DNA from: a virus | Direction: 5' to 3' (one strand) | IMG/VR virus record: IMGVR_UViG_3300046462_000629 | Span: 1 to 31,845 of that record | Length of the DNA: 31,845 bases | Part shown: positions 936 through 29,316 of the stretch, piece by piece | How the letters are laid out: every line of letters starts with the position of its first letter | Position numbering within the stretch: position 1 is the stretch's first letter | Made by a program: the position numbers and the translations under genes | The notes under the pieces: generated by a model | The model's input: the letters and a program-made list of their open reading frames with translations, nothing else | Told to the model about the DNA's origin: nothing | Database searches by the model: none

Positions 936-3080
936 ATGGCAGTCAATGACCACTACACCGCTGGGGCTGGCGGGCTGAATCCTTATCCCCAGAACTACCT
1001 CGGCAGCATAATCCAGAGCCCAGAGCTTGATGCGAAGGGCAAGCCGACGCAACATTCGATTCGCGATGTCGGTATGGCGCGCGACGTGGTGAAGACCGTC
1101 ATCATGGCTGGCCGCAACCGCTCTATTGTAAACTCGCGCATCCTCGCGAAGTATAACGCGGAGCGGCCCTACGACGCCTACAAACTGGAAGCCGAAGGGC
1201 TCGGCTGGCGGAGCAATTTTACGACCAAGCCCCTGCCCGCGATGATTGAGCGAGTGGCCCCTCGTTTTAAGGGCGCAGTAGACGGGCTGAAGTATTTCAC
1301 TAATTCCTCGCTGTCGAACAAGTGGCAGAACGCTTCCGAGAAAACCGAGAAGTTCCGTGAGGTAATCACCAGGGTGATTCGAAATCGGAAAGGCTGGACC
1401 ACCCTCCTGGAAGATATCGCTTTTGATAACGCAATTTTCGGGCACACCATCACCGCGTGGCTGGACGAGTTTACTTGGTTCCCCAATCACTTCAAGCAGG
1501 ACGAAAGTTTTGTAGCGGACGGGACAAAGTCAGACCCTCGCATGGCACAGATTGTGGTGCTGAAAGAAATCTTTTTGCCCCATGAGCTTTTCCGTCATAT
1601 TAAAGACCGCGAAGCTGCGGAAGCTGCGGGTTGGAATCTCAAGAATACCATCGAGGCAATCAACACCGCTTCGCCGATTCAGATTCGGGACCGGCTCAAT
1701 GTTGGTGGCACCCTTGAAACTTGGTATCAGAACGCTCTTCGTGAGCTTACGATTGGTGCCAGTTACATGGCCGGTAACTCAGTCATTGTGGTATACACGC
1801 TGCTCGCCAGAGAAGTGGACGGGAGTGTGTCGCATTATCGTATGGCCGGTCCTGGGATGCTGGAGATTTTCTCGCGCGATAATCGTTTCCCTAGTATGGA
1901 GGATACCTGTTCGTTCTTCTCCTTCCAAAAGGGCAACGGCACTCTGCACGGTTCCAAGGGAGTCGGACGCGACATTTATGAGATGGCGGGAATGATTGAC
2001 CGCACTCGCAACGAGGTTGTGGACCGGCTGATTATGTCCGGCAAGATGGTCGTGCAAGGCGACGTGAAGAGAATCCATACGTTCAAAATGAGCGTCGTGG
2101 GCTCGACGGTAATTTTCCCAACCGGCTGGGATATCCTGGAACGACGGCTCGACGGTAACGTGGACGGATTTTTGAAGCTGGACGTTTATTTCAACCAGCT
2201 TGTGGACACCCTCATTGGGAGCACCTCGGTGCCGCAGATGGAAGGCGCGGGCGAAGCGATGCGCTCACCGGCTGCCTGGAATCTGTTGGCCCAACGCCAG
2301 GAGGAAGGCCGGGACGTTCGAATTACTCGTTTCATGGAGCAGTTCGTGCAGATGGTGGGCACGATGCAGAAAAGAATTTGTGACCCTCAGACGATAGACG
2401 ACGACGCGAAGGAAGCCCAGCGTGAACTGCTGGAGTTCATGACGAAGGAAGAAATCAAGGAGCTTTCGGGTTCCCCGGTGGCGGGCACCATCAAAGATTT
2501 GACTCCGCTCGAACGCCAGCTTATCGCTGCGTTCTGTGCAGAGAAGAAAGGCAATCCGCTTTACAATCAGCACGCTCTCGAAGTCGAAGACATCCTCGCG
2601 CGCCTGGGCAAGGATTACGTGGACAAGGTTTTGCTGCCCGACCAGGACCCTACCGAACAAGCGGAGCAACAGCGCCAGCAGATGCTGGAGTTTATGTTGC
2701 TGTCGCACGGAGAAGCGGTGCCGGTCTCGAAGCGAGACAACCACATGATTCACCTCCAGGTGTTGATGCCGTCCGCAGAGCAATTAGCCCAACAGATGGG
2801 CCAGGGACAATTCGGGACCGACTCTCTCGAAGCGGTGATTGCGCACATCAACGAGCATTACAACAATGCGGTCCAGCAAGGTGTGAAGCCTGAGGCACTC
2901 GCGCAGATTAAAGATTTTCTAAGCAAGGCCGGACAAGCTCTGGCACAATTACGTCAGCATGACCAAGCAGCCCAACAAATTGCTGACGCACACGGTCACC
3001 TCTCCACGGGGGCACCCCTGCCTCCGGGAGTTTCACCCAACATAATGCCCCCCGATGGAAATAACAGCCCAACCTCTTGA
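936..3080 (+). CDS. Putative portal protein (head-tail connector)
   Basis: 714 residues, about the length of P22-type portals and longer than T7-type connectors. Portals form the dodecameric ring at one capsid vertex through which DNA is packaged and ejected, and to which the tail attaches. The assignment rests on size, position just after the packaging-region genes and before the scaffold, and a soluble mixed alpha/beta composition with no signal peptide. Residues about 560 to 700 are glutamine- and alanine-rich helix, suiting the C-terminal barrel of long portals. The first ATG after the CGACT motif was taken as start. Its last 26 nt overlap the next gene in another frame. A sequence-only family match was not possible, so the call is by context. 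Confidence 0.7.
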   Translation: MAVNDHYTAGAGGLNPYPQNYLGSIIQSPELDAKGKPTQHSIRDVGMARDVVKTVIMAGRNRSIVNSRILAKYNAERPYDAYKLEAEGLGWRSNFTTKPLPAMIERVAPRFKGAVDGLKYFTNSSLSNKWQNASEKTEKFREVITRVIRNRKGWTTLLEDIAFDNAIFGHTITAWLDEFTWFPNHFKQDESFVADGTKSDPRMAQIVVLKEIFLPHELFRHIKDREAAEAAGWNLKNTIEAINTASPIQIRDRLNVGGTLETWYQNALRELTIGASYMAGNSVIVVYTLLAREVDGSVSHYRMAGPGMLEIFSRDNRFPSMEDTCSFFSFQKGNGTLHGSKGVGRDIYEMAGMIDRTRNEVVDRLIMSGKMVVQGDVKRIHTFKMSVVGSTVIFPTGWDILERRLDGNVDGFLKLDVYFNQLVDTLIGSTSVPQMEGAGEAMRSPAAWNLLAQRQEEGRDVRITRFMEQFVQMVGTMQKRICDPQTIDDDAKEAQRELLEFMTKEEIKELSGSPVAGTIKDLTPLERQLIAAFCAEKKGNPLYNQHALEVEDILARLGKDYVDKVLLPDQDPTEQAEQQRQQMLEFMLLSHGEAVPVSKRDNHMIHLQVLMPSAEQLAQQMGQGQFGTDSLEAVIAHINEHYNNAVQQGVKPEALAQIKDFLSKAGQALAQLRQHDQAAQQIADAHGHLSTGAPLPPGVSPNIMPPDGNNSPTS

Positions 3081-3432: not shown

Positions 3433-4797
3433 ATGGCAAATGAACCCCAGAATACTCCCCCGGCTGCGGTCCCTGACCCGGCTGCTAATAATGCTGAAGT
3501 CGCCGCGAGGCTGGCCGCACAAGACGCGGCGGGTCAATCAGCGGCTGGCAAGCCTTCTGATTTTGAACCGGTGGCGTCCGCACTGGATAATTTGGCTTCG
3601 GCCAAGCAGAGGGAAATTGAAGCTGCTGCGGCTGCTGCGGTCCAACCTGCTGCGGCTGCCCCGGCTGCCCCGGCTGCGCCTGCTGCTCAACCTGCTGCGC
3701 CTGCTAAGACGCCGGAGGAATTAGCCGCTGAAGCTGCTGCGAAAACTGCTGCTGATGCTGCGACCGCTGAAGCGGAGGCTGCCAAGTTGCGAGCCCAGGA
3801 TGTTTTCAAGGACGTTCCCAGTCTTCCCCAGGGCAGCGCGCCGAAAGCTTCTGAAGCATGGAACGCTCTCAAGGAAAAAGCGGCCAAAGAGATTTTGGAC
3901 CGCGACGCAAAAATTGCAGAGCTTACCAAACAGAACACTGACCTGACCACCCGGGTTAGCACGCCGACGACTCAGCAACTCGAAGCTGAGAAGGCGATGA
4001 AAGATTTGTCTGAATGGCGGGCCAAGCTCGACCTGAAGTTCGACCCGCGATTCCAGGAATACGACAAACAGGTTTCCGACATTCACGAATTTGTTTACGC
4101 CCAGCTTCGCAAACGGGCTGACGTCGTGGGCGAGAACGTGATTGACGAAATCAAGAAACTCGGCGGGCCTGAGAACTGCAACCTGTCGGAGCTTTTCAAT
4201 AAGCTCAAGGACCCGGTTCTTCAGCGAATCGTGGAATCGAAAATGTCGGACGCGTTGCTGGCCGGTCACAAGAAGGAGCAGGCAATCAAAGAGGTTGAGT
4301 CTAACATGGGCGAATACCTCAAGCAGCGGGAAGACGCTTTCCGCAATGCCCAGACTTCTCACACCACGGCAACGAAGCAAGTGCTCGACCCGATGCTCTC
4401 GAAGCTCGACTGGTTCAATCCGAAAGCGGATGACGAGAACGGTAAGAAATTCGTGGAGGATTTGAAGGTCCAACTTGCGTCTGCGCTCCAGGATGATTCG
4501 CCGCAGATGCGCGCTATTTTGCTGACCGGCTTCGCGCAGATGTGTCATCTCCAGAACGCGAACAAGGCGCAAGCGGCAGAGCTTACGACTACCAAGGCCG
4601 CGCTCGCAGAGGCCCAGGGTTTGCTGGACCGCATCAAAAATTCCAGCACCTCACGGTTGCGTGAGTCCGGCGCTCCACCGAATGCTCAGCCCGCACCTCC
4701 TCCCAAGCAGAACGAATTTACAACTCGGCCTGCTGACGCCCTCGATGCCCTGGCCCAACAGGTCATGGCGCAACGTGTGGCTAAAGGTGCGGTATGA
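3433..4797 (+). CDS. Putative scaffold / capsid assembly protein
   Basis: 454 residues with composition typical of phage scaffolds, which guide capsid protein into a procapsid and then leave. Residues about 5-110 are very rich in alanine and proline (low complexity). A charged, strongly helical middle (about 95-395) has coiled-coil character and few aromatic residues. The C-terminal 60 residues are again proline- and alanine-rich and may carry the capsid-binding end. AAGGAA about 6 nt before the ATG is a modest Shine-Dalgarno. It sits between portal and major capsid protein, the normal place for a scaffold, although two glycosyltransferase-like genes intervene here. No protease catalytic motif was noticed. 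Confidence 0.72.
   Translation: MANEPQNTPPAAVPDPAANNAEVAARLAAQDAAGQSAAGKPSDFEPVASALDNLASAKQREIEAAAAAAVQPAAAAPAAPAAPAAQPAAPAKTPEELAAEAAAKTAADAATAEAEAAKLRAQDVFKDVPSLPQGSAPKASEAWNALKEKAAKEILDRDAKIAELTKQNTDLTTRVSTPTTQQLEAEKAMKDLSEWRAKLDLKFDPRFQEYDKQVSDIHEFVYAQLRKRADVVGENVIDEIKKLGGPENCNLSELFNKLKDPVLQRIVESKMSDALLAGHKKEQAIKEVESNMGEYLKQREDAFRNAQTSHTTATKQVLDPMLSKLDWFNPKADDENGKKFVEDLKVQLASALQDDSPQMRAILLTGFAQMCHLQNANKAQAAELTTTKAALAEAQGLLDRIKNSSTSRLRESGAPPNAQPAPPPKQNEFTTRPADALDALAQQVMAQRVAKGAV
3621..3706 (+). repeat. GCTGC-rich low-complexity tract in the scaffold gene
   Basis: This stretch is built from irregular gct/gcg/gcc alanine codons and cct/cca proline codons and encodes an Ala-Pro linker. Similar GCTG words continue to about 3780. 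It is a candidate for slippage between related phages and would be the first place to expect length variation. Confidence 0.7.
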
Positions 4798-5678
4798 ACG
4801 AGTTAGTGGTCCCTTCGGACCACAGCGAAGGGGTGACACCAGTAGTGGTGCCACCCCGAAATACTATCGTTCCCCTTCAGTCGAAGGTGCTGATAGTTAC
4901 GCCGTGGCAAAAACAGGTCTCGCCGGTCACGTCGTTTTGCGTCTCTCAGCTTAGCGACCGGAGACGCACTGCGACCGCGTTACATTTTGGTGACGCGTTC
5001 GTGGCTCATTCTCGAAACTCGTGCGCGGACACCTTTTTGGCGTCTCAGTTTGAGTGGCTGCTCACCATTGATGACGACATGATTGTTCCCTTCGGGGATG
5101 ACAATTGGTTTCGTCACTTCACCGGCTGGGGTTTCGACAAAAAATTCATGGGCTGGAATGCCCTCGACCGTTTGTTGAGCCATGGCAAGACCCTGGTGGG
5201 CGCTCTTTATTTCGGGCGGCACAAGGGCGGGCCTCCAGTATACAACGAGGGCTCCGCAAACAAGCAGGAAGCGGAGTATGCCGCGCGCGGGCCTTATGAT
5301 TTAATCAAGCCGACTCGTTGGGTGGGCACCGGCTGCATGCTGATTCACCGAAAAGTATTCGAGGACATCGAAAAAAAGTTCCCACGGTTGGCCAGGACAC
5401 CGAAGGGCACCGGGGGAAACTGGTTTACGTCCACCGAAGCGACACTTTTGCGCGACGTGGACTTCATTCGCTCCCAACTCCAGGGCAAACCGCTCGACGG
5501 GAAGGTGGCTTACGACGTGATGAATGGTCTCGAAGGCGCAGCAGCGAAGGCTGCATTCGAAAATCCGCTCGGCAGCGGTGAAGATGTGAGTTTTTGTCTG
5601 CGTGCTATGGCTGCGGGGCATCAACCTTACGTGGACATGGGGCTTAGGTGTGGGCATATCGGCCACTGGGTGTTCTGA
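4794..5678 (+). CDS. Glycosyltransferase-like protein (GT-A type), first of two
   Basis: 294 residues. The Rossmann-like core starts near residue 31 (KVLIVTPW). W-LL-T-I-D93-D94-D95 is a DXD-type motif that in GT-A enzymes holds the divalent metal and the nucleotide-sugar phosphate. G-T-G-C-M-L-I-H and a late G-E-D-V-S-F segment (about 262-267) fit the acceptor-side acidic motif of family 2-like transferases, followed by a GHIGH segment. It would act in the cytoplasm on a nucleotide sugar; the acceptor is unknown. The ATG overlaps the scaffold stop (ATGA). Residues 1-30 are not part of the fold, and their DNA forms two hairpins, so an alternative GTG start at 4887, directly before the first strand, should be considered. 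Confidence 0.72.
   Translation: MNELVVPSDHSEGVTPVVVPPRNTIVPLQSKVLIVTPWQKQVSPVTSFCVSQLSDRRRTATALHFGDAFVAHSRNSCADTFLASQFEWLLTIDDDMIVPFGDDNWFRHFTGWGFDKKFMGWNALDRLLSHGKTLVGALYFGRHKGGPPVYNEGSANKQEAEYAARGPYDLIKPTRWVGTGCMLIHRKVFEDIEKKFPRLARTPKGTGGNWFTSTEATLLRDVDFIRSQLQGKPLDGKVAYDVMNGLEGAAAKAAFENPLGSGEDVSFCLRAMAAGHQPYVDMGLRCGHIGHWVF
4806..4857 (+). promoter_or_regulatory. Two tandem RNA hairpins at the start of the first glycosyltransferase gene
   Basis: Hairpin 1 has GTGGTCC (4806-4812) pairing with GGACCAC (4817-4823) around CTTC. Hairpin 2 has an 11-bp arm at 4830-4840 pairing with 4847-4857 around a 6-nt loop, with one A-C mismatch. No T run follows, so this is not a classic terminator. It could lower downstream expression, mark an RNA-processing site, or act as a leader if translation starts at GTG 4887. 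Confidence 0.5.
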
Positions 5679-5679
5679 T

Positions 5680-6480
5680 ATGAAGAAAATTCTCCTCGCG
5701 CTCCAGTATTGGGAAGGTGACCGCGCCGCGTCAGCGAAACTGCTCAAGTTTTTAGCCGACCTGGAGCCGAAACATTGCGAGCTAGCGGATATTCTGCTTG
5801 TGAATCGCTTCGACTGCCTCCCGGAGACATCTGCGGCGACCTACGCAGAGCGGAAGTTCAACATTTTCAGTCACACCAGCCGTCGCCGTGGCACCGGCTG
5901 GCCGAATGGCTGCAATGACTTGTGGTTTTCGACCATGGAGTGGGTGCTCGGCTCTATGGAGACGAAGAAGTGTCCCGACTACAAAGCTGTTTTCACTTTT
6001 GAATCGGACGGAGCACCTATTTTCCAGGATTGGGTCCGAAGATTGAGCTTCGCGTGGGACCGGGTGCAGTCGAAATCGAAAATTTACATCGCGGGTCCCT
6101 ACATTCCGCCCCCGGTTGAGCACATCAACGGAAATATGATGATTTCCACTGACCACAAATTTTTGGACTGGCTCGTCCGGCGCGTTTCCGGTTGTCCGGC
6201 GAACATTGGATGGGATTATTACCTTTTCAGTGCGTTTAAACGATGGGGTGTTGCGAACATTCCGGAAATCGTAAGCCTGTATCACACCAAGGACTATACT
6301 GACGAGAGATTTCGCGAATTCCGAGAGAAACCAGTGGCCTGGGTTCACGGGGTGAAGGACACCTCGTTGCTGGAGTGCTCGCGGGCTCATTGGCTGGGTA
6401 AAAGGGAGCCCGTTGACCCCTCGAAGGAGCCGAATCGATTTTCTGGGGAGTTTTCCAGTTCAGTCAGCAGTCAAAATTGA
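5680..6480 (+). CDS. Glycosyltransferase-like protein, second of two
   Basis: 266 residues from the ATG at 5680, 1 nt after the previous stop. An in-frame upstream ATG at 5602 lies inside the preceding gene and is less likely. The protein begins with a beta-strand, KKILLALQYW. It has V-F-T-F-E-S-D-G at about residues 107-114, where E-S-D is a candidate metal-binding DXD equivalent, then H-I-N-G-N-M-M-I-S and W-D-Y-Y-L-F-S-A-F, an arrangement seen in nucleotide-sugar transferases of GT-A fold. The acceptor and sugar cannot be read from the sequence. Pairing with the gene before it suggests the two add successive sugars, or act on a shared target such as a virion protein or the host surface. 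Confidence 0.6.
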   Translation: MKKILLALQYWEGDRAASAKLLKFLADLEPKHCELADILLVNRFDCLPETSAATYAERKFNIFSHTSRRRGTGWPNGCNDLWFSTMEWVLGSMETKKCPDYKAVFTFESDGAPIFQDWVRRLSFAWDRVQSKSKIYIAGPYIPPPVEHINGNMMISTDHKFLDWLVRRVSGCPANIGWDYYLFSAFKRWGVANIPEIVSLYHTKDYTDERFREFREKPVAWVHGVKDTSLLECSRAHWLGKREPVDPSKEPNRFSGEFSSSVSSQN

Positions 6481-6652
6481 GGTTGACGCATTCCGTCGCC
6501 CCCGCGACATCTAAATAGCACCTTAAGCAGGTCTCCCCCGGTGCTTGGAGAATCGGCCTTACGAATTTCTGCTGCTGGGCCAACAGTGGAAACTGAGTCG
6601 CGGGTGACAGCGACAAAAACCTGAAGCTTCGGCTTCAAACACAGTTTTTACT
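6481..6652 (+). promoter_or_regulatory. Structured non-coding leader before the major capsid gene
   Basis: 172 nt with no plausible reading frame, the longest gap in the plus-strand operon. It contains three potential stem-loops: GTCGC/GCGAC (6495-6508), AGCACC/GGTGCT (6517-6522 with 6540-6545) and a TTCG hairpin (6622-6637). AGCGAC at 6610-ish shares the first six bases of the motif found before other genes. No good sigma-70 pair is present: TTGACG at 6483 has no -10 at the right distance. Capsid genes often have their own strong transcript, and this gap probably holds that control. Confidence 0.5.
6622..6637 (+). promoter_or_regulatory. cTTCGg tetraloop hairpin in the capsid leader
   Basis: TGAAGC pairs with GCTTCA around TTCG, giving the unusually stable C(UUCG)G tetraloop in RNA. 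It lies 15 nt before the capsid ATG and is followed by ACACAGTTTTT. It could be a 5' mRNA-stabilising hairpin or a weak terminator for upstream transcripts; the T run starts 7 nt after the stem, which argues against an efficient terminator. No Shine-Dalgarno lies between the hairpin and the ATG. Confidence 0.55.
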
Positions 6653-7969
6653 ATGGCTTTTTTCTGCGATGACCCTAGCGCAATCAGTGATATTGCGTCT
6701 AAGGACACAAACCGAATCGTCGGCACCATTGCCAAGGCTCTGGCTGCCAATGCTCCTTACATGAACGTAATCACCGGTGGGGTGTTCCCATCCGGCACGT
6801 CTGATGCAATCCGCTCGATTGTCCAGATGCAGGCGGCTCCTGGCGACTCTCTCGCCATTCCCACCTTCGTCTGTGATACCGACATTTGCGGTCAGACCGG
6901 TCATCAGGACCTAACCGACACTGTCGAATTCACTCTCCGCCTGGAAAGCTTCCGTGGCCGAGGCCCCAACATCTGCGTTAAGAAAGGCTATGCGGCTTTC
7001 AAAGGCAGCTATGTGATGGCTGAGGACTCGCTGAAGAAACTGGTCGTGCAATACATCAACGCGGACATCCGCGCTCAGTTGTATCTGCGCTCCGCCAGCA
7101 AGTTCACGGCGAACGCGAATTACGACTTCAACAGTCTTTTCACCGGTGGTCTGGAAACCGACCTGGGTGTGAAGTTCGCACCGTTGCTGCCCACTGGTCC
7201 CATGACCTTCAAGGCGCTTCATTACATCGCGCGCTACATGCGCGAGGTTTTGTTCGCTGAGTGGTATGGCCAGGACAGCGGCATGCCTCACTTCCGTTTC
7301 ATCGGCGGCTCCGACCAAGTGGAATATTTCCGCTCCGAAGTCGGCGTCCAGAACGTGATGGTGGCTCTGACCACTGGCGGATACAAGATGGGTGAAACCA
7401 CCTTGACGGCTTACTCGTTCGAGCAGAGCCCCGCTTACCGTGGCCTCGCCTTCGGCGTGGACCAGCGGCCTTTGCGCGCGACCGGCTTCAATCCGGACGG
7501 CACGCTCGCCCTGGTTGACCCCGTGGTCATCGTCGCGAATCCTTCGCGCGGTGTCGCGTTCGCGAAACCGAATCCGGCGTGGCTCTCCGCGCCTTATGAA
7601 CTCGGCATCCTGATTGCCGATGGCTCGTTCGAGCGTCTCGTCCCCGAGAAATACGTGGGCGAAGGCTCGTTCAAATTCGCGCCCCAGCTTCACATGGGTG
7701 AGCTTGAGTGGCACTACCAGATTGACAACCAATGTAACCAGTGGGGTGACTTTGGTTGGCACAAATACCAAATCACCCGCGCGTATCGTCCGCTGCGTCC
7801 TCAGCACATTGTGCCGCTGCTTTACAGCCGCTGCCAAGCTGACCTGGGTCTCGTGGCTTGCGCTAGTGCGAATGGTTCCAGCTTCAGCGGAGCCGACAGC
7901 TTCATCAACGTTGGGGTGTGCGGTGACAACGAAGCCCCGGTTGTTGGTCCGGGTGTTCCGACTCTGTAA
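6653..7969 (+). CDS. Putative major capsid protein
   Basis: 438 residues, a usual length for an HK97-fold capsid protein or functional analogue. It is a soluble, mixed alpha/beta protein without low complexity. It follows the scaffold region, has its own long leader and is followed by a strong hairpin, as expected for the most expressed gene. The N-terminal part is helical, the middle has a long strand-rich region, and the last 30 residues are Gly/Ser/Pro-rich. It contains around ten cysteines, which is many for a capsid protein, and disulfides or metal sites could stabilise the shell. The start ATG lacks a Shine-Dalgarno. The assignment is by position, size and context. Confidence 0.75.
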   Translation: MAFFCDDPSAISDIASKDTNRIVGTIAKALAANAPYMNVITGGVFPSGTSDAIRSIVQMQAAPGDSLAIPTFVCDTDICGQTGHQDLTDTVEFTLRLESFRGRGPNICVKKGYAAFKGSYVMAEDSLKKLVVQYINADIRAQLYLRSASKFTANANYDFNSLFTGGLETDLGVKFAPLLPTGPMTFKALHYIARYMREVLFAEWYGQDSGMPHFRFIGGSDQVEYFRSEVGVQNVMVALTTGGYKMGETTLTAYSFEQSPAYRGLAFGVDQRPLRATGFNPDGTLALVDPVVIVANPSRGVAFAKPNPAWLSAPYELGILIADGSFERLVPEKYVGEGSFKFAPQLHMGELEWHYQIDNQCNQWGDFGWHKYQITRAYRPLRPQHIVPLLYSRCQADLGLVACASANGSSFSGADSFINVGVCGDNEAPVVGPGVPTL

Positions 7970-8042: not shown

Positions 8043-8972
8043 ATGGCCGCTGATACAAATTTCCGGCAAGGTGACACCGAATGGGACCTTGCGAGAAAAA
8101 TTCTTCAGCGGCTAAATTCTTTTATCAACGTGGCATCTGATACATCAACTCAATTTGCGCAGGGCGATACTTTATACAACATAAAGCGAAAGACCTTGCG
8201 GCGGCTTAACCAACTTTTTCCCTCCGCCACCGGCGACGTCGTCTGGAGACAGGGGGATTCTCAGTGGAGCATCGAAAGAAAAATTCTTCTGGTGCTCAAC
8301 CAGGACACGGCGATTCCTATTCCGGAGACACCTGCGGTAGTGCAAAGCAAGTGGGGGTCAGGCTCGGCGGATACTACGAGCGTGACTTTAACTGGAGTCA
8401 CGGCAGGCAATATGATTGTGGTAGTAGCGGCAATCGTCGCCACCAGCCCAGCGGCCCCAGTAGACGGGGATTGTGTAGACGGAGTGTCCGACTATACGGT
8501 CGATTCGTCAACTCCAGCAATCAACACTTTTTATCGGTTCGCCGTTTGGTCTAAGGTCGCGGCAGTCAGCGGCAACCTCACTATCACTGTAGGAAACGGG
8601 GGCGTATTGGTCAATGCGCTTAATGTTTGTGCCTACGAGATTTCGGGCTTGGCTCTTAAGATGTTTGATTCTGGCAACGATGGAGTCGGAACGAGCGCCA
8701 CTCCCACAACGGATATTTTTGGGACATCGTCCGCAGGGGTAATCGTAGCTGTCGAAGCAGAGTTTACCGGGGGAGCAGGAATTACTCATACTGCCGGACC
8801 TGGATATTCGATTTCAGATTCCGGCAACGCACACGGGGATGAGAACTCAGGCGCTTTGCTGGCGGGCTGCGCGGAGCATAGGGTAACGACTGGGGCGCTC
8901 GATGTAACGAATGCGTCCTGTGTTTTAGCCCCAGACCAATCCTGGGGGATTCTGGCTGCGGCTTATAAATAA
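8043..8972 (+). CDS. Virion surface-type protein with three N-terminal QGD repeats and a beta-rich C-terminal domain
   Basis: 309 residues, function not recognised. Residues 9-25, 40-56 and 70-86 are three copies of a 17-residue unit, QGD-[TS]-x2-[WY]-x-[ILV]-x-R-K-x-L-x2-L-N, at a spacing of 30-31. Residues about 100-309 are rich in Thr, Ser, Gly and Val, with alternating strands, as in beta-sandwich decoration or adhesin domains. There is no signal peptide. It comes directly after the major capsid gene and its hairpin. The repeats could be capsid or fibre anchoring units and the C-terminal domain could be exposed on the particle, for example as a decoration protein, head fibre or fibre anchor. 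These roles are inference. Confidence 0.75.
   Translation: MAADTNFRQGDTEWDLARKILQRLNSFINVASDTSTQFAQGDTLYNIKRKTLRRLNQLFPSATGDVVWRQGDSQWSIERKILLVLNQDTAIPIPETPAVVQSKWGSGSADTTSVTLTGVTAGNMIVVVAAIVATSPAAPVDGDCVDGVSDYTVDSSTPAINTFYRFAVWSKVAAVSGNLTITVGNGGVLVNALNVCAYEISGLALKMFDSGNDGVGTSATPTTDIFGTSSAGVIVAVEAEFTGGAGITHTAGPGYSISDSGNAHGDENSGALLAGCAEHRVTTGALDVTNASCVLAPDQSWGILAAAYK
8067..8300 (+). repeat. Three tandem QGD protein repeats
   Basis: The three units start at 8067, 8160 and 8250. The protein pattern is clear (QGDTEWDLARKILQRLN, QGDTLYNIKRKTLRRLN, QGDSQWSIERKILLVLN) but codons have diverged, so the duplication is old and kept by selection on the protein. Confidence 0.8.
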
Positions 8973-10079: not shown

Positions 10080-11165
10080 ATGCCAGAGTGCTTAGATTGC
10101 GGCCAGACCGACCCGAATCCGAATCCGCTGGATAGTTGCAGCCGACCGGCGTGCGATAACCCGTGTGGTAGCGGCCCACACAATACGCCTCAGTGCGAGA
10201 CGCTGCCCAGTCAGATTGAAAATTTCACGCTTCAGTTTTTCGGTGAAGTGGTCAAGACGGAGCAGAACGGTAAGGTCGTTTGGTCGTTGCCGTGCGGCCT
10301 GGACGTCGGGCTACCGGATAATCCGCGCGGCGTGAGCGAAGGGCTCGCCTGCTATTTTCTACGGCTCTTCCAGGACGGTATCACCGGGCTGAAGGGCGAT
10401 AAAGGCGACCAGGGCGTCGCGGGCACAAACGGAAACAACGCATACAGCGTGACGCTGCACACTTTCGCGCAGCCGTCGCTAGCGGCTCCCAGTGTTCAGA
10501 TTCAGACCCAGTTTAATCCTGGAGTCGGTCTCACCGGCAGCTACCTTTTCATCGATACCTCCGGATGGTATCAAGTCGCCGGGTCAGATGCGAATGGGAA
10601 TCTCTCACTCGTTTTGATTAAGCTATCGAGCACTAACGCGGGCGCGTTGGTGACTCCTGGCAAGCTGGTGATTGTTACCGGCCCTCCCGGTGCAACGATT
10701 CAAGGCCCTCAAGGCATACCCGGACCTATCGGTCCCGCTGGCTCTCCTGGCCCAGAGCCGACCGCGACCAACGGAATGTATCAGCCGAATCTGTCCGCTT
10801 CGGATGCGAATCCGGACGTGACCTATGCGGTGTTGGATTACACCACTTCGAACATGCAATTTTTGGCTCCTGTGGCCGGGACCTATTTAGTGAACGTGGT
10901 GATTACCGTCGTTGCTTTGGGGGCTGTGGTAGCTACTGACGGAGCCTTTTTGCAAGTGGTGGATGACAGCGTAGCCGCTAACATCGGCCCGGAGCAGGTT
11001 ATTACCGGGCTTGTCTCAGGTGAGCATCGCCAACTGAGCATCACCGCAATTGTGGTCACCGATTCAGATAATCACCAAATTTCTATCTACGGAAAACAAA
11101 CGGTCCTCGGGCACATGCACTATCAGGCCATTCGGTCCGTGATGACCTGGGTTCGACTGGAATGA
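10080..11165 (+). CDS. Collagen-like fibre protein with cysteine-rich N-terminus
   Basis: 361 residues. The N-terminus (1-45) is rich in Cys, Pro and Asn (C4, C7, C20, C25, C29, C39) and may be disulfide- or metal-stabilised. Residues 100-118 form a first collagen-like Gly-X-Y block with seven glycines in register. Residues about 201-225 form a second block of Gly-Pro-rich triplets. An approximately 80-residue strand-rich domain lies between them, and residues about 235-361 form a C-terminal beta domain of a size compatible with a C1q/TNF-like trimerisation head. Collagen-like triplets in phages are usually found in trimeric fibres, so this is probably a tail or head fibre contacting the host. 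Its stop overlaps the next start (ATGA). Confidence 0.75.
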   Translation: MPECLDCGQTDPNPNPLDSCSRPACDNPCGSGPHNTPQCETLPSQIENFTLQFFGEVVKTEQNGKVVWSLPCGLDVGLPDNPRGVSEGLACYFLRLFQDGITGLKGDKGDQGVAGTNGNNAYSVTLHTFAQPSLAAPSVQIQTQFNPGVGLTGSYLFIDTSGWYQVAGSDANGNLSLVLIKLSSTNAGALVTPGKLVIVTGPPGATIQGPQGIPGPIGPAGSPGPEPTATNGMYQPNLSASDANPDVTYAVLDYTTSNMQFLAPVAGTYLVNVVITVVALGAVVATDGAFLQVVDDSVAANIGPEQVITGLVSGEHRQLSITAIVVTDSDNHQISIYGKQTVLGHMHYQAIRSVMTWVRLE

Positions 11166-19376: not shown

Positions 19377-21056
19377 ATGGCAATTGGTGGACCTACTGAT
19401 ACCGCTCAGTCCAGCGTAAACTCGCTCGGGCAGCCCCTCGTCACTTCTGCGGACCCTAATGTGGTTGGACCCGCAGCGGTGGAGCAGCTTGTTGATTCAC
19501 TCCGAAAGGGGTTCATTACCAACCAGGATATTTTGGACCGCATCGGTCAAGTGGGGCAGTCGAAGAAAAAGGCTCTGCTGGAAAGTCTGAAAGAATATGT
19601 CAATCCTGATGTGGTGCAGTCTCGTCTTGATACTGCTCGCGCTGCGGGTGCCCAGGCCCAACTCTCGGCCCAGCAAGCGCAGGCCCAGCAAGGGCTCGTG
19701 GAGCAACAGACAGCTTTAGCGAAGACGAATCTCGCGGCGCAACAGGCGACTGCTGTGTATGGCCCGGGCGGGCTCGATACCTACCAACAGTTCGGCCATT
19801 TTTTCGGTGAGGCTATGCCCCCGAATCCTGGTCCGGAAGATTTCAAGAAAGCTGCGGCTCGTGGAAACGAAATGCGCGGCCAGCTTTCACTTTCCGATTC
19901 CTGGTTGAAGGCGCTCACTCCAGTGGGCGAACGGACCGTGGAAGAGAATGGCCGCAAGTATACGGCTAAGGTGAACTGGCAGGGCCAGAATGTTACTCCT
20001 CCGGACGTGGAGAGCGGGTATCCCGGCTCTCCGGCATATTGGTCGTATGCCAAGCAGTTGGACAAAGTTCTTCCGCAGTTTCATCCGGCGCGCGGGCAAT
20101 ATTTTTTGGACCCCTCTGCGGTGTCCGGTGCTAAAGACATGCACGCAGGTTCGGGCTTAGTCTCGCCAGCGGGCACTCCAAATCCTCAGGCGTCCAATCC
20201 GGCAGACCGGGCAGGGTTAGCGAATCAACTCGAACAGGAAGGTGCGGAGAATGGTCCGGCCTTGGTGTCTTCTATGCCGGACGCTCAAGTCCAGGAGATG
20301 ATGAACCGGCGCTCGGTTGCGGTGGCTCAGCACACCCCCGGTGAAGCTCCGATGGTGGCTCCGAAATCTGCGCCTGCGGCTCCGGCTGCTAAGCCTACTC
20401 CCGGCATCCTGACTTACACTCCGGAAGCTTGGAAGGTCAAGAACGACATCCAGACTGCGGCGCGCGCGGATAAACGCGTGACGAACTGGGAAGCGGCTCA
20501 GCAATACATCACACCTTTTGTAAGTCGCGCGCAGGAAGTGGCGAAGATGCCTATCGAGCAACAGCAGTCCTCGAACATGGCTGTCATCGACCAGGGGATG
20601 GTTGAAAATCTTATCAAGATGTATGACCCCTCTGGCGTGATGCGAGAATTCAAGTGGGAGAAGACGGAACAGAACCAGAGCAAAATCGAACGGTATCTGA
20701 ACATGAAAAACGTCTGGCAAAAGATTAAGGGTGAAACAGTCCTTACTCCCCAGGCGCGCCAGCGGTTGGTGGATATGGGCTACGAAGCGATTCGCGGTGT
20801 CGAGTCTGCCGCTCAGCCAGCGTTTCAAAATGCGGTTCAGTCAGCGGGCACCGCAGGCATCGGCAATCCTCTGGACGCGGAGCAGTCGCGAGTTGCCAAT
20901 GGACAATTTTTGGAAAATCCCTGGCCGCTCAGCAAAGGGTCCGCGAAGGGTTTGGTTTCTGCTCCTGGGGCTGCCGCAGCGGGGCCTGTTCGATTTATTC
21001 AAGGGATTGGAAATGTGCAGCGTGGTCCAGATGGAAAATTTTACAAAGTTGACTAA
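19377..21056 (+). CDS. Putative internal virion protein (second large, gp15-like position)
   Basis: 559 residues from the ATG at 19377. A longer in-frame start at 19266 would overlap the previous gene by 106 nt and is less likely. GGGAG about 13 nt upstream may act as a weak Shine-Dalgarno. Residues about 85-140 are Gln/Ala-rich coiled coil (AQLSAQQAQAQQGLVEQQTA), 290-350 are Pro/Ala linker, and 351-495 form a compact helical domain containing VIDQGMVENLIKMYDPSGVM and QNQSKIERYLNMKN. The order small protein, medium helical protein, giant protein matches the ejection-protein series gp14, gp15 and gp16 of T7-like phages. The stop and next start overlap as TAATG. Confidence 0.65.
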   Translation: MAIGGPTDTAQSSVNSLGQPLVTSADPNVVGPAAVEQLVDSLRKGFITNQDILDRIGQVGQSKKKALLESLKEYVNPDVVQSRLDTARAAGAQAQLSAQQAQAQQGLVEQQTALAKTNLAAQQATAVYGPGGLDTYQQFGHFFGEAMPPNPGPEDFKKAAARGNEMRGQLSLSDSWLKALTPVGERTVEENGRKYTAKVNWQGQNVTPPDVESGYPGSPAYWSYAKQLDKVLPQFHPARGQYFLDPSAVSGAKDMHAGSGLVSPAGTPNPQASNPADRAGLANQLEQEGAENGPALVSSMPDAQVQEMMNRRSVAVAQHTPGEAPMVAPKSAPAAPAAKPTPGILTYTPEAWKVKNDIQTAARADKRVTNWEAAQQYITPFVSRAQEVAKMPIEQQQSSNMAVIDQGMVENLIKMYDPSGVMREFKWEKTEQNQSKIERYLNMKNVWQKIKGETVLTPQARQRLVDMGYEAIRGVESAAQPAFQNAVQSAGTAGIGNPLDAEQSRVANGQFLENPWPLSKGSAKGLVSAPGAAAAGPVRFIQGIGNVQRGPDGKFYKVD

Positions 21057-24000
21057 TGCCCCAAGAAGTTTCTCTATCGCCGGAGCAACAGGCGCAGTAT
21101 GAAAACTCGCCTACGGCTGGACAAGAGGTTCAGTTAACCCCGGACCAGCAGGCCGCATTCGACCAGCCCCAGTCCAAAGAGGTTGACCCTCTGAAGGATT
21201 TTACTTCGGAGCAGATTTTTCAGTTATCGAAGCAGGACCCTGAGTTTCGAATCCTCGAACAATTTTCCAGCCGTCCCGACCTTCAGAAGGACCCGTGGAT
21301 GGTCTCCAAGGTTGCCGACGCGTTGCACAAGCAGAAGCTGGAGCCCTGGTATCGCGGAATCTCCGCTTCGGGCATGGCGAAGGGCATCGCGGGTTTCGGC
21401 AAAGGCGCATTCACTCAAGCGAGCGATGTCGCGCAGAATGCCGCTGATTCGATTAGCTTGGGCCTCGGGCATCTGCTCGGCGCGGACCCGGGCACGCTAG
21501 ACCAGTTAGGCCGAAACATCCAGCAGCGAGTCGCAGAGTCTACCTCAGCGACTGAGGCGGCTACTACCGGCCTCGTGGGTCAAGCCGTTCGCCTCGCGAA
21601 AAAAGTTGGCGGCAAACCGCTCGACCAATACACGGAACAAGACAAAGTCAATTCACTTTTCGATTCCCTGGCCGACCTTCAGCAGCAGCAAAAGATTGCA
21701 ACCGGCCACGGCGCGTTGTTAAGTGCGGTGGGTCCGGAGGTGGTTAAGAATTTGGAGCAGCAGGGCTCCGCAGTGAGACCGGAGCAAGTGGCCTCGCTAG
21801 CCCAGGCGGACCCGTTCGCTTTTGAAGCGATGGGCAAAGGTCTGGCCCCGGTTGGCAAAGCTGCCGGTGCTCTGGTGCCTGAATCGGCTGCTGCACTGGC
21901 CCAGAAGGCAGCCCAGGCTACGATTGGACGCGGCGTGCAGGCTGTCGGTGCTCTGGTGAAGCCGGTGGCGACTGCGGTGCGCGCGGTAGCTCCGGGAGTA
22001 TCAAAGGCGGCGGGTGCTGCTGCGGGAGCAGTCGCGGCTGGTGAGCTAAATCCGGCTGCTATCCCTCTGGGTATCATGGAGGGCTTGGAGAAGGGCGGGA
22101 AGCTCGGAGAAAAAATCGCTACGGGCGCTGGCAAAGTGGCCGGTAGCTTCGACCAGCTTTCGGAAATTGGAAGACAGATTGCTGGCGCGGCCCCGCTTAA
22201 GTCTTCCCTGGCAGTCGTGGGCCGACAGGTTGCTGAAGCTGCACCTCGTGCCGCTGGCGCAGCGTTGGCCGGTGCTGGATTCGATATCGGGCTGCAAGCA
22301 GGCACTGCGGAGACTCCGGAAGAGCGAGAATCGTTCACTCCGTTTGGAACTATTTTCGGTCTCGCTCATGGCGTGAAGTATGCCGGGACCCACACGATTA
22401 GCGGTTTGATTTCCGCTCCACGCGAGTGGGGCTCGAACATTCGCACCCCCAACTCGAAGAATTTTCCGGGTCTTAATTCGGTCCATGACGCGGGTTATGA
22501 TTCGGCGTCTCCCGGGGTAAAATCCCGGGTGAATGCTTTGCGGCAGCTAGTGGAGGGAACCGGCGCAGAACTTTTTTATGCGCCCAGGCCGGAGCAAGGA
22601 CAGCCCGACAATCTACCCGACACTTTGACGGGTATGGGAATTCCCGCAGACCGGGCAGATACTTTCGCAGACAAGGCCGCTTTCACCACTACCATCAACG
22701 GAAAGAAAGTGGTGGTGATTCGAAACGTTGAGGCCGGTCCGCACGACGCACTGCACGCGATTGACGATGTGGTTGGCGCTACCCAGGTCCGGGAGCTTAA
22801 CGACGCGGTCAAGGGTCAGTATACCCCTGAGGTATGGTCGCAAATGCGCCAGCGGTATGCCGACCTGCTCGCTCCAGGCACCGACAATCCCACCGCTACC
22901 ATTCTTGACCAGACCGGCAGAGGTGACGCGGAAGCGAAGGAAAAAATAATCCGTCAGGTCCACGACACCTTCACCCAGAATAACGAGACTCCGGACATGG
23001 AGTCGTTTAAACAAGCTGCCGGTTCTGAGATTCAACGCCAGCAATCCGATGCCGCAGCGGCAGGCAAATCTTTGTGGGAGCACACCCTGACTCCCGAAGA
23101 GCAGAACAACGTAGCAGACCAATACATGGGCTCCGAAGTCCGTGCTGAGAATTTTGATTCGGCTTATAAAGGAATCGGTGATGGAAAGACGCTCACTGAC
23201 AAGCTCGCTCACGCGGTAGCGGGCACCATGGCGTCTCTCGGATTTAATCCGGTTGCTGGCCGATACTCCGACCTGGGCTTCCCGCTCGACTACGCCACGA
23301 TGAAGCAAGGGCTGAAACAGTCGGCTGTAAACAAGCCGCTGGTGTCTCCGTCCAAGCTCCCGAAAGTGGTAGCTCCGGTTGGGTCACCCGCTGCCGCGAC
23401 GCAGCAACAGAAACGCCACGAGGAAATCGTGAAGACCGCGCCGGACGTTGCGCTCCCTGGCGCTGCCAAGTCTCCGCGCGAGATGATGGGAATTTTGAAC
23501 GAGGCAGTTCTTTCGGGCTCGCCGGTAGATATTCACTACGGGCACGCGGGCGGAACCGCACCTGCGGCTGGCACTGGCGATTTGCCGGAAGCTGCGCTCG
23601 GCGGGGTCAGCCGCGCGGACAGGCGAGAAGTCATCGAGGCTTGGCGACAACTCCCGATTGCGACCCGGTCTTTTATGGCCACGTTATTCTCTCCGGAACG
23701 TTTCGACGTTACCAAGGGCGGGAAGTATCAGGTCTATGGCGGTTCGCATGCTGTTCTCGCGGCGAACCTTCAGAAGCTTGCGAATTTTTCTATCGCGCAC
23801 CCTGAGGTGAAGCTACCTGACGGGTGGAACGTTGACGACAAGTCTTTTACTCCCGACTCGTGGAATACCATTCTGGACCAAGTCCAGAAGTATTCCCGCA
23901 ACCAGTTAACTGGTCGCGCAGGCTCCGGCCAGCCGCTCGTGGTGCCGAAGATGAAGGGCTATTTTGCTCCTCCAGTCACCGGCGAGGCTGCTGTGATTCC

Positions 24001-27000
24001 GCAGGATGCTGCCGACGCAATCAATGCGGTGTTCGGCCAGACCACTCCTGCTACCGCACGCATCATGAAGAAGGATGTCGTGCCGCTGAATCTCGCGGGG
24101 CAGCGAATCGCGGAAGCCACCCTTCCAGGTAGAGTCGAAGCGCCGACCGCAGAGTCGCCGGAGTTTGAAGGGGAAACTGCGAAAGGGCTCGGCATCGAGG
24201 GCCAGCATGTCTTGGAGCCGAATCCGTTTTTACAGGAGCTAAACAAATTTTCTGACGCGCCTAGTTTCATCGAGGCACGGCGCAGGCTGAACCTGGAGCA
24301 CATGGCGGACGTTGAACATGCGCCTGCTGGTTCACCGTCGCTGCGGGGGAACACGTTGACGATGGCTGCCGGATTTCGTCCTGAATTACTCCCGGATAAA
24401 GAAAACGTGGGGAGATGGTCAAGATTCTCTCACCTAGTAGGAATGTGGTTGTCCCCAGACGGAGATTTCTATGATGCGACCCCTACCCACTATCATTCAG
24501 CGGAGAAATACATAACTGGGGTCACAAAAGAAGACCCCCGAGAATTAGCCTATAAAAAACAATGGGTCAGAGTTAATATCGATGGCGGGTCTGCCGACGC
24601 TCAGATTCTTATTGAGGGTCCGAAACCTAATCCGACTCAAATGCGGGCTTTGGATTCAGCCGCAGAGAGTCAGGGGCTACCGGTTAATAATGATAGCGGA
24701 CGGACTGTGATAGAGGCTCCTGCCGGATTCCGTCCGGAGTTGAGAGGCAATGAAGACATCCAGCAAGTTGCCGATAGATACATGAAGGCCACCGGCAGGC
24801 CGTATACCCGGCCTACTGCCGCTACGCCGCTCAATGAAGCGGTGGCGAAGCGTATCGCGGATTTTTATCAGAGTGCGGCCCATTCGCCGGACAGTCCAGA
24901 AGTCCAGTCGTCTTACAAAGCGATGGCGGACGAAACCGTTCAGCAATGGAACGCTCTGGAGAAGGCCGGATATAAGATGGAGCCCTGGACTAAGCCCGGG
25001 CAGCCCTACGGTAGCTCGGCAGAGATGACCGCAGATGTTCGAGACAACCATCACCTCTGGTTTTTTCCCACTGAGGCGGGCTATGGAACCGGCACAGAGA
25101 TTGCCAAGCATCCACTGCTGGAGGATTCTGGCGTCCAGGTCAACGGGCGTGAGCTTCCTTATAACGACGTTTTTCGCGCGGTCCACGACGTGATGGGGCA
25201 CGCAAAAGAGGGTTACGAATTCGGCCCGAAGGGGGAGCTTAACGCTTACCTCGCGCACTCCGCGATGTATTCGGATGCCGCGAAGCCTGCGATGGCTTCG
25301 GAGACTCTCGGACAAAACTCCTGGGTTAACTTCGGTGAGCACCTCCGGACCCCGGAAGGTAATATTCCCAAGAAGGGCGAAGCCGGATTTGTTCCTGCCC
25401 CGGAAAGACCATTTGCGGAGCAGAAAGCTTTTCTGTTGCCGGAGAATCTTCAGAAACTTTCTTTGGATGACGAATCTGCCCAGTTCAAACCCCGAAAGCG
25501 AAAAGACGACTGGCAGCTTAAGGAGGGACCCGGGATGTTTTCGAAGGCGTGGATTGCCCCCGACGGGAAACCGATTCAACTTGGCGGGCAGTGGCACCAC
25601 GAATGGGTAAACGAGAATCCTGATGTGGCCGAGAAGTATGGTCTGAAGCCTACGACCAGCGGCGAAGAGAATCGTTCCGAAGCTTTGCAAAAAGGTTTTG
25701 CTCGCGTGAACTACGAGAAGAACACCGGCACTTTTAAAGTGGAGGCTCGCCAGCAGGACTGGGATAAGCTGTCTCCCTCGGTGCTAGAGATGGTGAAGCG
25801 CAACCTGGGGAAGATTGACAACATGGACGTGCATTTGCTGGATGCGAAGGGCAAGAACATTGTTGACCAGGATGGCGTAGCGTTGCACACCTACGACGCG
25901 GGGGAAAAGCTGGACCACATCCCGTTGATTTCGGAGCCGTCGTCTACGGTCACTGAGACGAGCCCTCAGGCGACTGGGAAAGCAGAGTCAGCCCAATTCC
26001 GGCCCGCTGATGAAGACACCCAGATTTTATACTCCGGCAAAGGTGGAGGAGTAGGCTCCGGCGAAGGTGGCTCCTGGTGGACTTCGAGTTTGAGACGCGC
26101 CATTTCTTTCGGCCCGTCAGTTAGCAGAGTAGAAGTGCCGAAAGAAATTGCACAGGCAGCCCGCGAAGCCGCGTTGAAACAGGGTAGTGGCACCTCCACG
26201 GATTTTGTGCTTCCCAATGAGTGGGTGAAAAAGGCGGAGCCGGTGGGTGAGCTTGACCAGCCCACGTATGAACTACCGATTCAATTCCGGCCCGATGAAA
26301 CAAACCCGCGCGCGGTAAAGATGGCTGCACTCCGTGACGAGGACACCGGTAAGATTTACGAAGGCCCGATGCATGCCTTTGCTAAGCTGGAGTATCTGAA
26401 AGAAAAATACGCCAGTCGGTTGGACGAGAACGGTGACCTTCCGGATAACCTGATGCTTCAAGCCTGGAAGGCGGACCCTAACTTGTCGGAAGGATTCACT
26501 ACCAACGCGGGAGAATTTTTGAGCCGCGACGAGGCAAAAGACCGTGCGGTTGAACTAAAGCAGTATGTCGCTAAACCGAACGAGGGAAGCAGTCTGGAGT
26601 CTCAAGCGTTCACCAGACAGCAGGAGCTACAAAAAGCTGGCTACGCTCCAGACGTCCAATACCGACCGTCCGCTAAGCCGGAAGATTTTAAGAGCGAAGA
26701 AACACTTCCTCGCGCGCTCCAGTCTCCTAACTGGGCAATCTTCACGGCGACAAAAGAAGATTTAGGCCCCGGCACCAACGAGCACAACGAACTGCGAAAC
26801 GAGAATTTAGAAAAAGCTCTTGTAGCCGACGGCTTCACTCCTACCGAGGTGAGCGGAAATTACAAAGGCGTTGACCAGGGAAAAAGTTTTCTGGTGCCCA
26901 ACATGACCCCGGAGCAAGCGACCGCGTGGGGTAATAAGTATGGCCAAGAGAGCGTGCTTACTCCACACGGTATTCTTTACGGTGACGGGACGATTAACCC

Positions 27001-28641: not shown

Positions 28642-29316
28642 ATGACTGGCACTGAATCAGGTCTCGTTGCTCCCGCTGCGGTTGCCCCACCCGCTGCTGC
28701 CCCCGCACCCATCGCTGCCGCTCCATCCCCTGACGCGTCCCAGACGCCTAGCACCCAGGACGACCGGCTGCCCCCGGAGATTCTGAAGATTCACGCGATG
28801 CAGGCATTGATTGCCGGGAACCCGGCTGCCGTGTCCGCCCCGTTAAAAGAATTTGGTAACCGTAAGGAAGCGAAACTTATCAAGGAGCACAAGGATGCTC
28901 TAACGCAAGCCGGTTTCGGCTTTTACCGCTCTCTGAACGGTCACCTGGGGGTCATTTTCAATTCGTTGCATTTGCACCCCCAAGATTTGATGGCAGCCGA
29001 CAAGGCCGGGAAGCTCACACAACTCGCGCCTTCTTTTGATATCGTGGACCATGCGGTGTCGAAATCCGGAATTCACAATCCAGTTTTGAAGGCGAAGTCG
29101 GTCCCGAATGGATTGGCTCCGCCTACGCTTCAAGCTCCTCCTCAGGTCACTGCGGGAATGGCTCCAGGCTCCTCGCCTGTCGCGGCTGCCCCGAATTCCG
29201 TCCAGCGTAAAGCTATGGCTGCCCGGATTGGGAATATCAGCCCTGGGGCTCCGACTTCGGGCTCGATGCCGGGAGCCGGACGTTTGCTGAATCAAATCTA
29301 CAAGCCGGTTGTTTAA
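28642..29316 (+). CDS. Pro/Ala-rich protein with a small helical core, last gene of the late operon
   Basis: 224 residues. Residues 1-45 and 150-205 are Pro/Ala/Ser-rich and disordered. The core (about 45-135) is helical and contains KLIKEHKDALTQAGFGFYR and SLHLHPQDLMAADKAGKL. There are no cysteines or catalytic motif. It has its own CGACT motif, so it may be transcribed separately. Its stop overlaps by 4 nt the stop end of the convergent metallophosphoesterase gene on the other strand. It is probably a virion or assembly protein, by position only. Confidence 0.7.
   Translation: MTGTESGLVAPAAVAPPAAAPAPIAAAPSPDASQTPSTQDDRLPPEILKIHAMQALIAGNPAAVSAPLKEFGNRKEAKLIKEHKDALTQAGFGFYRSLNGHLGVIFNSLHLHPQDLMAADKAGKLTQLAPSFDIVDHAVSKSGIHNPVLKAKSVPNGLAPPTLQAPPQVTAGMAPGSSPVAAAPNSVQRKAMAARIGNISPGAPTSGSMPGAGRLLNQIYKPVV

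Follow-up and report, generated by a model that had tools for sequence, protein, structure and literature searches.

Two genes for GT-A-fold glycosyltransferases, here called GT1 and GT2, lie between the scaffold-like and major-capsid-like genes of the IMG/VR virus record IMGVR_UViG_3300046462_000629, whose whole 31,845-base stretch of DNA is referred to as the window. The window has a head-module-like gene order on its plus strand, and its lineage is a large uncultured group of soil and freshwater phages. All 129 capsid-selected loci in which the scaffold-like and capsid-like genes are both present have GT1 between the two, a position beyond chance, and most relatives have further sugar genes between GT1 and the capsid-like gene. 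The head module of this lineage contains a glycan island that varies around a fixed anchor: GT1 stays, and the remainder moves. The best explanation, which we hold to be probable, is that a surface protein of the virion is glycosylated in the cytoplasm while the head assembles.

Position of GT1 and its variable neighbors

The module encodes a portal-like protein of 714 amino acids (aa), a 124-aa protein, a scaffold-like protein of 454 aa, GT1, and GT2, followed by 172 bases and the gene for a capsid-like protein of 438 aa. Its principal features are listed here.

936 to 3080, plus strand: portal-like protein, 714 aa; role proposed from order and size; conserved in relatives, without a family match
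3433 to 4797, plus strand: scaffold-like protein, 454 aa, 20% Ala, charged; proposed role; adjoins GT1 upstream in 129 of 129 capsid-selected loci holding a scaffold-like gene
4794 to 5678, plus strand: GT1, glycosyltransferase of GT-A fold, 294 aa; the island's invariant anchor; from model fold, motifs, and position
5070 to 5078, plus strand: GT1 motif D93-D95
5577 to 5585, plus strand: GT1 motif G262-E263-D264
5655 to 5657, plus strand: GT1 residue H288
5680 to 6480, plus strand: GT2, second GT-A-fold glycosyltransferase, 266 aa, from ATG 5680; from model fold and motifs
6001 to 6009, plus strand: GT2 motif E108-S109-D110
6653 to 7969, plus strand: major-capsid-like protein, 438 aa; proposed role, without a family match; variable Ser/Thr-rich C-terminal tail at about residues 398 to 438

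The original prediction of two glycosyltransferase-like genes between scaffold and capsid genes was confirmed, as both are open reading frames (ORFs) on the same strand with GT-A-fold models. The tight coupling that it described applies to the scaffold-like gene, GT1, and GT2: the ATG of GT1 shares 4 bases with the stop of the scaffold-like gene, and the ATG of GT2 lies one base past the GT1 stop. It does not extend to the capsid-like gene, which is set apart from GT2 by 172 bases with a conserved structured leader. The ORF tool started GT2 at GTG 5602, inside GT1; we place the start at ATG 5680 because relatives align from there.

The names capsid, scaffold, and portal are proposed from synteny, that is, from size, order, and conservation. 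They are supported by an order and sizes like those of phage N4, by the capsid-like protein being the best conserved of the three (median pairwise identity of 0.77; portal-like protein, 0.58; scaffold-like protein, 0.41), and by the Ala-rich, charged character of the scaffold-like protein. Order, size, and conservation fit the scaffold and major capsid protein named in the original prediction, while a match to a protein family or PDB sequence is absent: searches of Pfam, PHROGs, and PDB sequences with the three proteins returned nothing. The phage collection held no cultured relative of the capsid-like or portal-like protein of either clade. PF03237, used to find the terminase large subunit (TerL), matched none of 16 longer records, and therefore the lineage could not be placed by TerL.

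Relatives were collected with three capsid-protein queries against viral contigs, and their loci were scored with profile hidden Markov models. Of the relatives found in the two large capsid scans, 80 of 131 and 80 of 90 were retained, and loci in which either the scaffold or the capsid gene was missing (20 of 80, 16 of 80, and 0 of 5) were excluded before counting. In the window clade, 60 of 80 loci hold both genes, and all 60, which form 44 distinct groups, have GT1 and GT2 between them. Both genes are present in 64 of 80 loci of a distant clade, all 64 with GT1 between, and in 5 of 5 loci from the third query, all with GT1 and GT2. Capsid identity to the window across these 129 loci runs from 100% down to about 39 to 45%, the identity of the distant-clade capsid being 39% by the first tblastn search and 45% by alignment. 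When only distinct distant loci are counted (capsid identity of ≤95%), 33 of 40 hold both genes and 33 of 33 have GT1. A mixed set, which is biased because it includes loci picked by GT1 or GT2, gave the order GT1 then GT2 in every one of the 72 groups (of 106) that hold both genes. In every one of 16 longer records, GT1 has a single location and so does GT2, although the GT1 match in the most distant of these consists of two neighboring pieces. One of the excluded loci, L045, has 4,160 bases upstream of its capsid gene without a GT1, GT2, or scaffold match; it does not count as support and is uninformative because longer gaps exist, up to 4,353 bases. The two genes are thus not placed at random among relatives. 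Rather than a peculiar insertion in this phage, as first described, the window carries a reduced form of a lineage-wide island of which GT1 is the invariant member.

Most relatives have a longer stretch than the window between GT1 or GT2 and the capsid gene, reaching 4.4 kb from GT2, and ORF clustering and family searches identified more sugar genes in it. These include NAD-dependent sugar-nucleotide epimerase/dehydratases of the short-chain dehydrogenase/reductase (SDR) type (PF01370/PF16363), a polysaccharide pyruvyl transferase gene, and, in the distant clade, FkbM and other methyltransferases and a GT34-like enzyme. There are also glycosyltransferase-like ORFs, assigned by eye from DxD-like motifs only, and a sulfotransferase-like ORF, likewise by eye, all without a family match. 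A sugar-nucleotide SDR is present in the gap of 37 of 55 distinct groups, 13 of which have both a GDP-mannose 4,6-dehydratase (GMD) and a fucose-synthase type by best BLAST match. At locus L016, GMD scored 485 bits versus an NCBIfam cutoff of 415, and the GDP-L-fucose-synthase-like protein beside it scored 409 bits, under its cutoff of 500. The gap has no further recognized sugar gene in 12 of 55 groups, including that of the window. One record of 73 kb, which at its end is 99.97% identical to the window over 11.4 kb, has no SDR in its gap, and it encodes GMD elsewhere (39185 to 40114, 481 bits), near a gene of Pfam glycosyltransferase family 2, as well as a fucose-synthase-like protein about 10 kb upstream of GT1. 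GMD exceeded its cutoff in 8 of 16 longer records, and some PF01370 enzyme was present in 14 of 16. An endonuclease VII-type gene cluster also occurs inside the island in 11 of 55 groups (for example, at 9348 to 9839 of L023) and is a possible means of cassette movement.

Fold and conserved residues of GT1 and GT2

AlphaFold2 models were built on alignments of 43 GT1 and 54 GT2 sequences. Both had high mean predicted local distance difference test scores (88.9 for GT1 and 93.5 for GT2), and comparison with Foldseek and VIA-align showed that both have the GT-A fold of nucleotide-sugar enzymes, in agreement with what the original prediction expected of structure models. The D93-D94-D95 motif named there for GT1 is present, with D93 and D95 invariant in the 43 aligned sequences. 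In a larger set of 88 distinct proteins plus the window, D93, D95, G262-E263-D264, and R270 are invariant and H288 is found in 87 of 89 rows; this set is dominated by the window clade, and five of its proteins come from the distant set. An acidic DxD-like metal motif together with later acidic and His residues (D93, D95, E263, D264, and H288) is therefore kept in GT1 and partly lost in distant GT1 proteins, an example of which is 28% identical to that of the window over 260 aligned positions. The E-S-D motif predicted for GT2 was found at residues 108 to 110; in 54 sequences, D110 is the only one of the three that never varies, and H148, N150, G151, and D179 are also invariant. D110 and the later acidic residue D179 give GT2 a conserved motif of this kind as well. 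The GT1 and GT2 profiles do not match one another, indicating that the pair did not arise by recent duplication.

The highest structural score for GT1 was to LH3 (Z of 17.9, 187 aligned residues). The match covers LH3 residues 293 to 537, which we take to be an accessory domain and not the catalytic one, and for this reason it was not used to read the substrate of GT1. A197 of Sulfolobus turreted icosahedral virus (STIV) gave the best target coverage (Z of 17.2, root mean square deviation of 2.4, 165 aligned of 191 residues, 18% identity), followed by Mimivirus R699 (Z of 16.4), COLGALT1 (16.1), and Mnn9 (16.0). Kinship with the collagen hydroxylysine transferases LH3, COLGALT1, and R699 was suggestive, given the collagen-like protein of this phage, and was dropped: we do not claim it because the Z scores of other GT-A enzymes (A197 and Mnn9) are lower by no more than one or two units. 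The structural matches of GT2, mostly enzymes of protein-linked glycans, were to the chondroitin synthase CHSY3-CHPF (Z of 16.4), B3GalT6 (15.7), C1GalT1 (15.4), and xylosyltransferase 1 (14.6).

Sequence searches were less specific. GT1 matched phrog_1574 (unknown function, E of 5.4e−11) and phrog_12406 (glycosyltransferase, E of 7e−4), with weaker glycosyltransferase PHROGs and Fringe at an E of >0.05. Assignment of GT1 to Fringe (PF02434) was rejected at 11.5 bits versus a Pfam gathering cutoff of 21. GT2 had no credible match in Pfam, PHROGs, or NCBIfam, and neither protein was assigned to a named family from these databases. A sequence search of PDB gave nothing usable for either. Among cultured phages in the collection, GT1 had weak matches only, and GT2 had none.

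Candidate acceptors and alternative explanations

The sugar acceptor is most likely a surface-exposed virion protein, and the first candidates are the C-terminal tail of the capsid-like protein and a collagen-like protein encoded farther downstream.

10080 to 11165, plus strand: collagen-like protein, 361 aa, having two Gly-X-Y stretches; candidate acceptor (head or tail fiber)

Among 62 distinct capsid sequences, mean column conservation is 0.56 to 0.60 over residues 401 to 438 versus 0.75 to 0.94 elsewhere, and the tail is 25% Ser/Thr versus 12% in the body. Gly-X-Y stretches occur in 57 of 58 distinct collagen-like proteins of the window clade, where Thr is one of the most frequent residues at Y; of the 32 distant-clade matches to the collagen-like protein profile, only 9 have at least six consecutive Gly-X-Y units.

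We infer the activity, donor, acceptor, timing, and purpose of GT1 and GT2, whereas their model fold, conserved motifs, fixed position, and the kind of neighboring enzymes were shown. Both would be soluble, probably metal-dependent GT-A glycosyltransferases produced alongside the head proteins. GT1 is a core enzyme of the lineage that probably performs the starting or committing step of glycan synthesis on a virion protein, and GT2 and the variable gap genes of relatives would extend or decorate this glycan. A GDP-mannose dehydratase and a GDP-fucose-synthase-like enzyme would supply a 6-deoxyhexose, and methyl, pyruvyl, and perhaps sulfate groups may be added. Such a coat of sugars would shield the particle or adjust its adsorption, and this could account for a fixed anchor beside decorating genes that vary. 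The link between glycosylation and head assembly raised in the original prediction is strengthened by the sugar genes in the gap of relatives; the acceptor that it named, capsid or fiber, remains a candidate.

Several observations weigh against virion glycosylation. Homology does not confirm the capsid, scaffold, and portal names. GT2 is not universal, being present in 18 of 64 distant-clade loci, and an SDR is lacking throughout 2 of 16 longer records. In the 59 distinct GT1 proteins of the distant clade, D95 is replaced by N in 10, D93 by A or G in 3, and H288 by N in 11; some members of this clade may therefore no longer bind metal. A comparison of pairwise distances did not tie GT1 or GT2 specifically to the capsid-like or collagen-like protein beyond shared ancestry. 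In 26 genomes, GT1 follows the portal (rho = 0.62) and GT2 less so (rho = 0.24), and partial correlations with the capsid-like and collagen-like proteins given the portal were 0.11 and −0.08 for GT1 and 0.29 and 0.18 for GT2.

GT1 and GT2 could instead modify a host surface polysaccharide during infection, causing receptor masking or superinfection exclusion like serotype-conversion genes. Host-surface modification is listed as a role of phage glycosyltransferases in excerpts of two papers (PMC10202952, PMC12619734), and the pyruvyl transferase gene and heptosyltransferase-like ORFs of the gap (by eye, without a family match) resemble polysaccharide enzymes. We judge this unlikely, as the genes are fixed in the head module, where late expression is expected, and hydropathy revealed no pattern of a membrane-bound glycosyltransferase or flippase in the gap. 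Applying a simple hydropathy threshold for membrane helices left all 61 distinct GT2 proteins below it; one of 50 GT1 proteins exceeded it, as did two cassette ORFs on the same strand, each an SDR. Lipid-linked export therefore does not seem to be encoded there. By hydropathy only, the hallmark of gtr-like serotype conversion, a membrane-embedded flippase with glycosyltransferases, was not seen among GT1, GT2, and the cassette ORFs.

The presence of GT1 in all 129 loci, where GT2 is not always found, could also mean that GT1 has turned into a non-enzymatic head assembly factor with a GT-A fold, and its being kept more strictly than GT2 would follow from that. The motif replacements in the distant clade and the LH3 match to a presumed accessory domain are consistent with such a factor. 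D93, D95, E263, and D264 are nonetheless invariant in the 88 distinct proteins and the window, including the five from the distant set, and sugar-nucleotide genes co-occur with GT1; we find a purely structural role improbable. Phage glycosyltransferases that act on DNA are also known (cited in an excerpt of PMC12619734), and GT1 and GT2 might glycosylate phage DNA as in phages with hypermodified bases. This is very improbable, as the genes lie in the head module and not among replication genes, and cassettes of several enzymes with pyruvyl and methyl transfer suit a surface glycan better. In addition, 0 of 16 longer records encode a thymidylate-synthase-type enzyme (PF00303), presumably the family that gave rise to base hydroxymethylases.

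Capsid leader, other genes, and known systems

The stretch directly before the capsid gene is conserved even behind kilobases of cassette.

6481 to 6652, plus strand: capsid-gene leader, conserved and covarying, without an Rfam match
6483 to 6487, plus strand: TTGAC-like box in the leader
6515 to 6589, plus strand: RNA core of the leader, conserved, covarying, and probably pseudoknotted

In 19 sequences, standard pairs make up 73.7% of cells versus 65.9% in shuffles and at most 49.3% when the pairing is slid, and 38 cells are changed on both sides versus 18.8 in shuffles. A tandem pseudoknot pattern was found in 34 of 54 leaders versus 3 to 12 of 54 in ten shuffle rounds and 7 of 54 inside the capsid gene; the printed helices vary from locus to locus, and the pattern does not fix the exact fold. 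A search of Rfam with the leader returned no family, and it is possibly a new regulatory RNA controlling capsid output. A conserved structured leader suggests that capsid output is set separately from that of the scaffold, GT1, and GT2. This weakens the argument from stoichiometry, made when the genes were first described, that scaffold and capsid genes should be adjacent. A visually similar GGCC...GCC arrangement is seen in the leaders of some distant relatives.

Other genes of the window were noted in passing. A minus-strand gene at 29313 to 30371 combines a GcrA-like N-terminal domain, just over the Pfam cutoff, with a below-cutoff match to calcineurin-type phosphoesterases, and its product is perhaps a DNA-binding/nuclease fusion. 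Two small neighboring proteins (91 to 654 and 651 to 899) share similar Cys-rich motifs; the second matches phrog_13558 (unknown function), and the first matches it weakly. Past the capsid gene, a 309-aa protein that few relatives encode (8043 to 8972) has three N-terminal "GDT...RK-x-L-x-x-LN" repeats, seen by eye. The only capsid relative in the genome collection (JABFSS010000103.1) is on a contig of a Candidatus Peribacteraceae metagenome-assembled genome; it may be a weak host hint or a misbinned phage contig and was not used for host assignment.

The gene order resembles that of phage N4, in which a 763-aa portal, proteins of 115 and 405 aa, and a 401-aa capsid protein lead onward to a giant protein gene; the window has 714, 124, and 454 aa, then GT1 and GT2, then 438 aa, leading to a protein of 2,466 aa. 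In N4, by contrast, the 405-aa gene directly adjoins the capsid gene. Profile comparisons against single N4 sequences only did not detect homology to the N4 capsid and portal (hhalign probabilities of 0.5 and 0.4 percent). The giant gene of the window (21056 to 28456) and that of relative L126 (6368 to 16435, 3,355 aa) match no polymerase family in Pfam, though a divergent polymerase could escape detection. The L126 protein has radical SAM, histidine phosphatase, and acetyltransferase domains, an odd combination if it is, as presumed, part of the virion.

Virion glycosylation by phage enzymes, viral GDP-fucose pathways, and a stand-alone GT-A protein suspected to act on a capsid are already known. 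According to excerpts of two papers, mycobacteriophage Che8 and related cluster F1 phages have capsid and tail tube subunits glycosylated at their C termini (PMC11256854, PMC12619734). Like the window, these are tailed phages with their own glycosyltransferases, and capsid-protein glycans are reported for the Che8 type in the same excerpts; the Ser/Thr-rich capsid tail described here recalls those C termini (excerpt of PMC12619734). The glycosyltransferase genes of the Che8 relative Maravista, unlike GT1 and GT2, lie near the 3' end of the genome and not between scaffold and capsid genes (excerpt of PMC11256854), and GT1, GT2, and the capsid of the window had no sequence matches in Che8-type phages. 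STIV A197 is, like GT1, a stand-alone GT-A protein; according to an excerpt, the gene is essential and the glycosylated coat protein is the suspected substrate of A197 (PMC10551542). A197 differs from GT1 in its low identity and in belonging to an archaeal virus of an unrelated type. The chlorovirus PBCV-1 and Mimivirus make GDP-L-fucose for capsid glycans with their own GMD and epimerase/reductase, and Mimivirus puts sugars on collagen-like proteins; unlike the window, these are eukaryotic giant viruses, and the excerpt consulted reports no fixed head-operon place (PMC4691112). Cyanophages such as P-SSM2 and DSL-LC02 have GDP-fucose/GDP-mannose genes, with GDP-L-fucose-synthase-like proteins about 50% identical to those of this lineage. 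Searches of the open-licence PubMed Central literature yielded no description of a glycosyltransferase between scaffold and capsid genes. As far as those searches show, a glycan island with an invariant anchor, fixed between scaffold-like and capsid-like genes across a lineage, is new.

Glycosylation of tailed-phage virions has been reported for a few mycobacteriophages and is regarded as an add-on. Here, a glycosyltransferase is as constant as the head genes across two clades in which no cultured member was found, and variable sugar enzymes adjoin it. Only tentatively, we suggest that sugar coating could be an obligatory part of head building throughout the lineage, with GT1 acting on the capsid tail or the collagen-like protein while heads are formed in the cytoplasm, and with the swappable cassette next to it, inside the head operon, setting an exchangeable glycan serotype particular to each phage. 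If so, many uncultured phage particles would be sugar-coated, glycan type would be a varying phage trait, and gene order would predict which phage proteins to examine for sugars.

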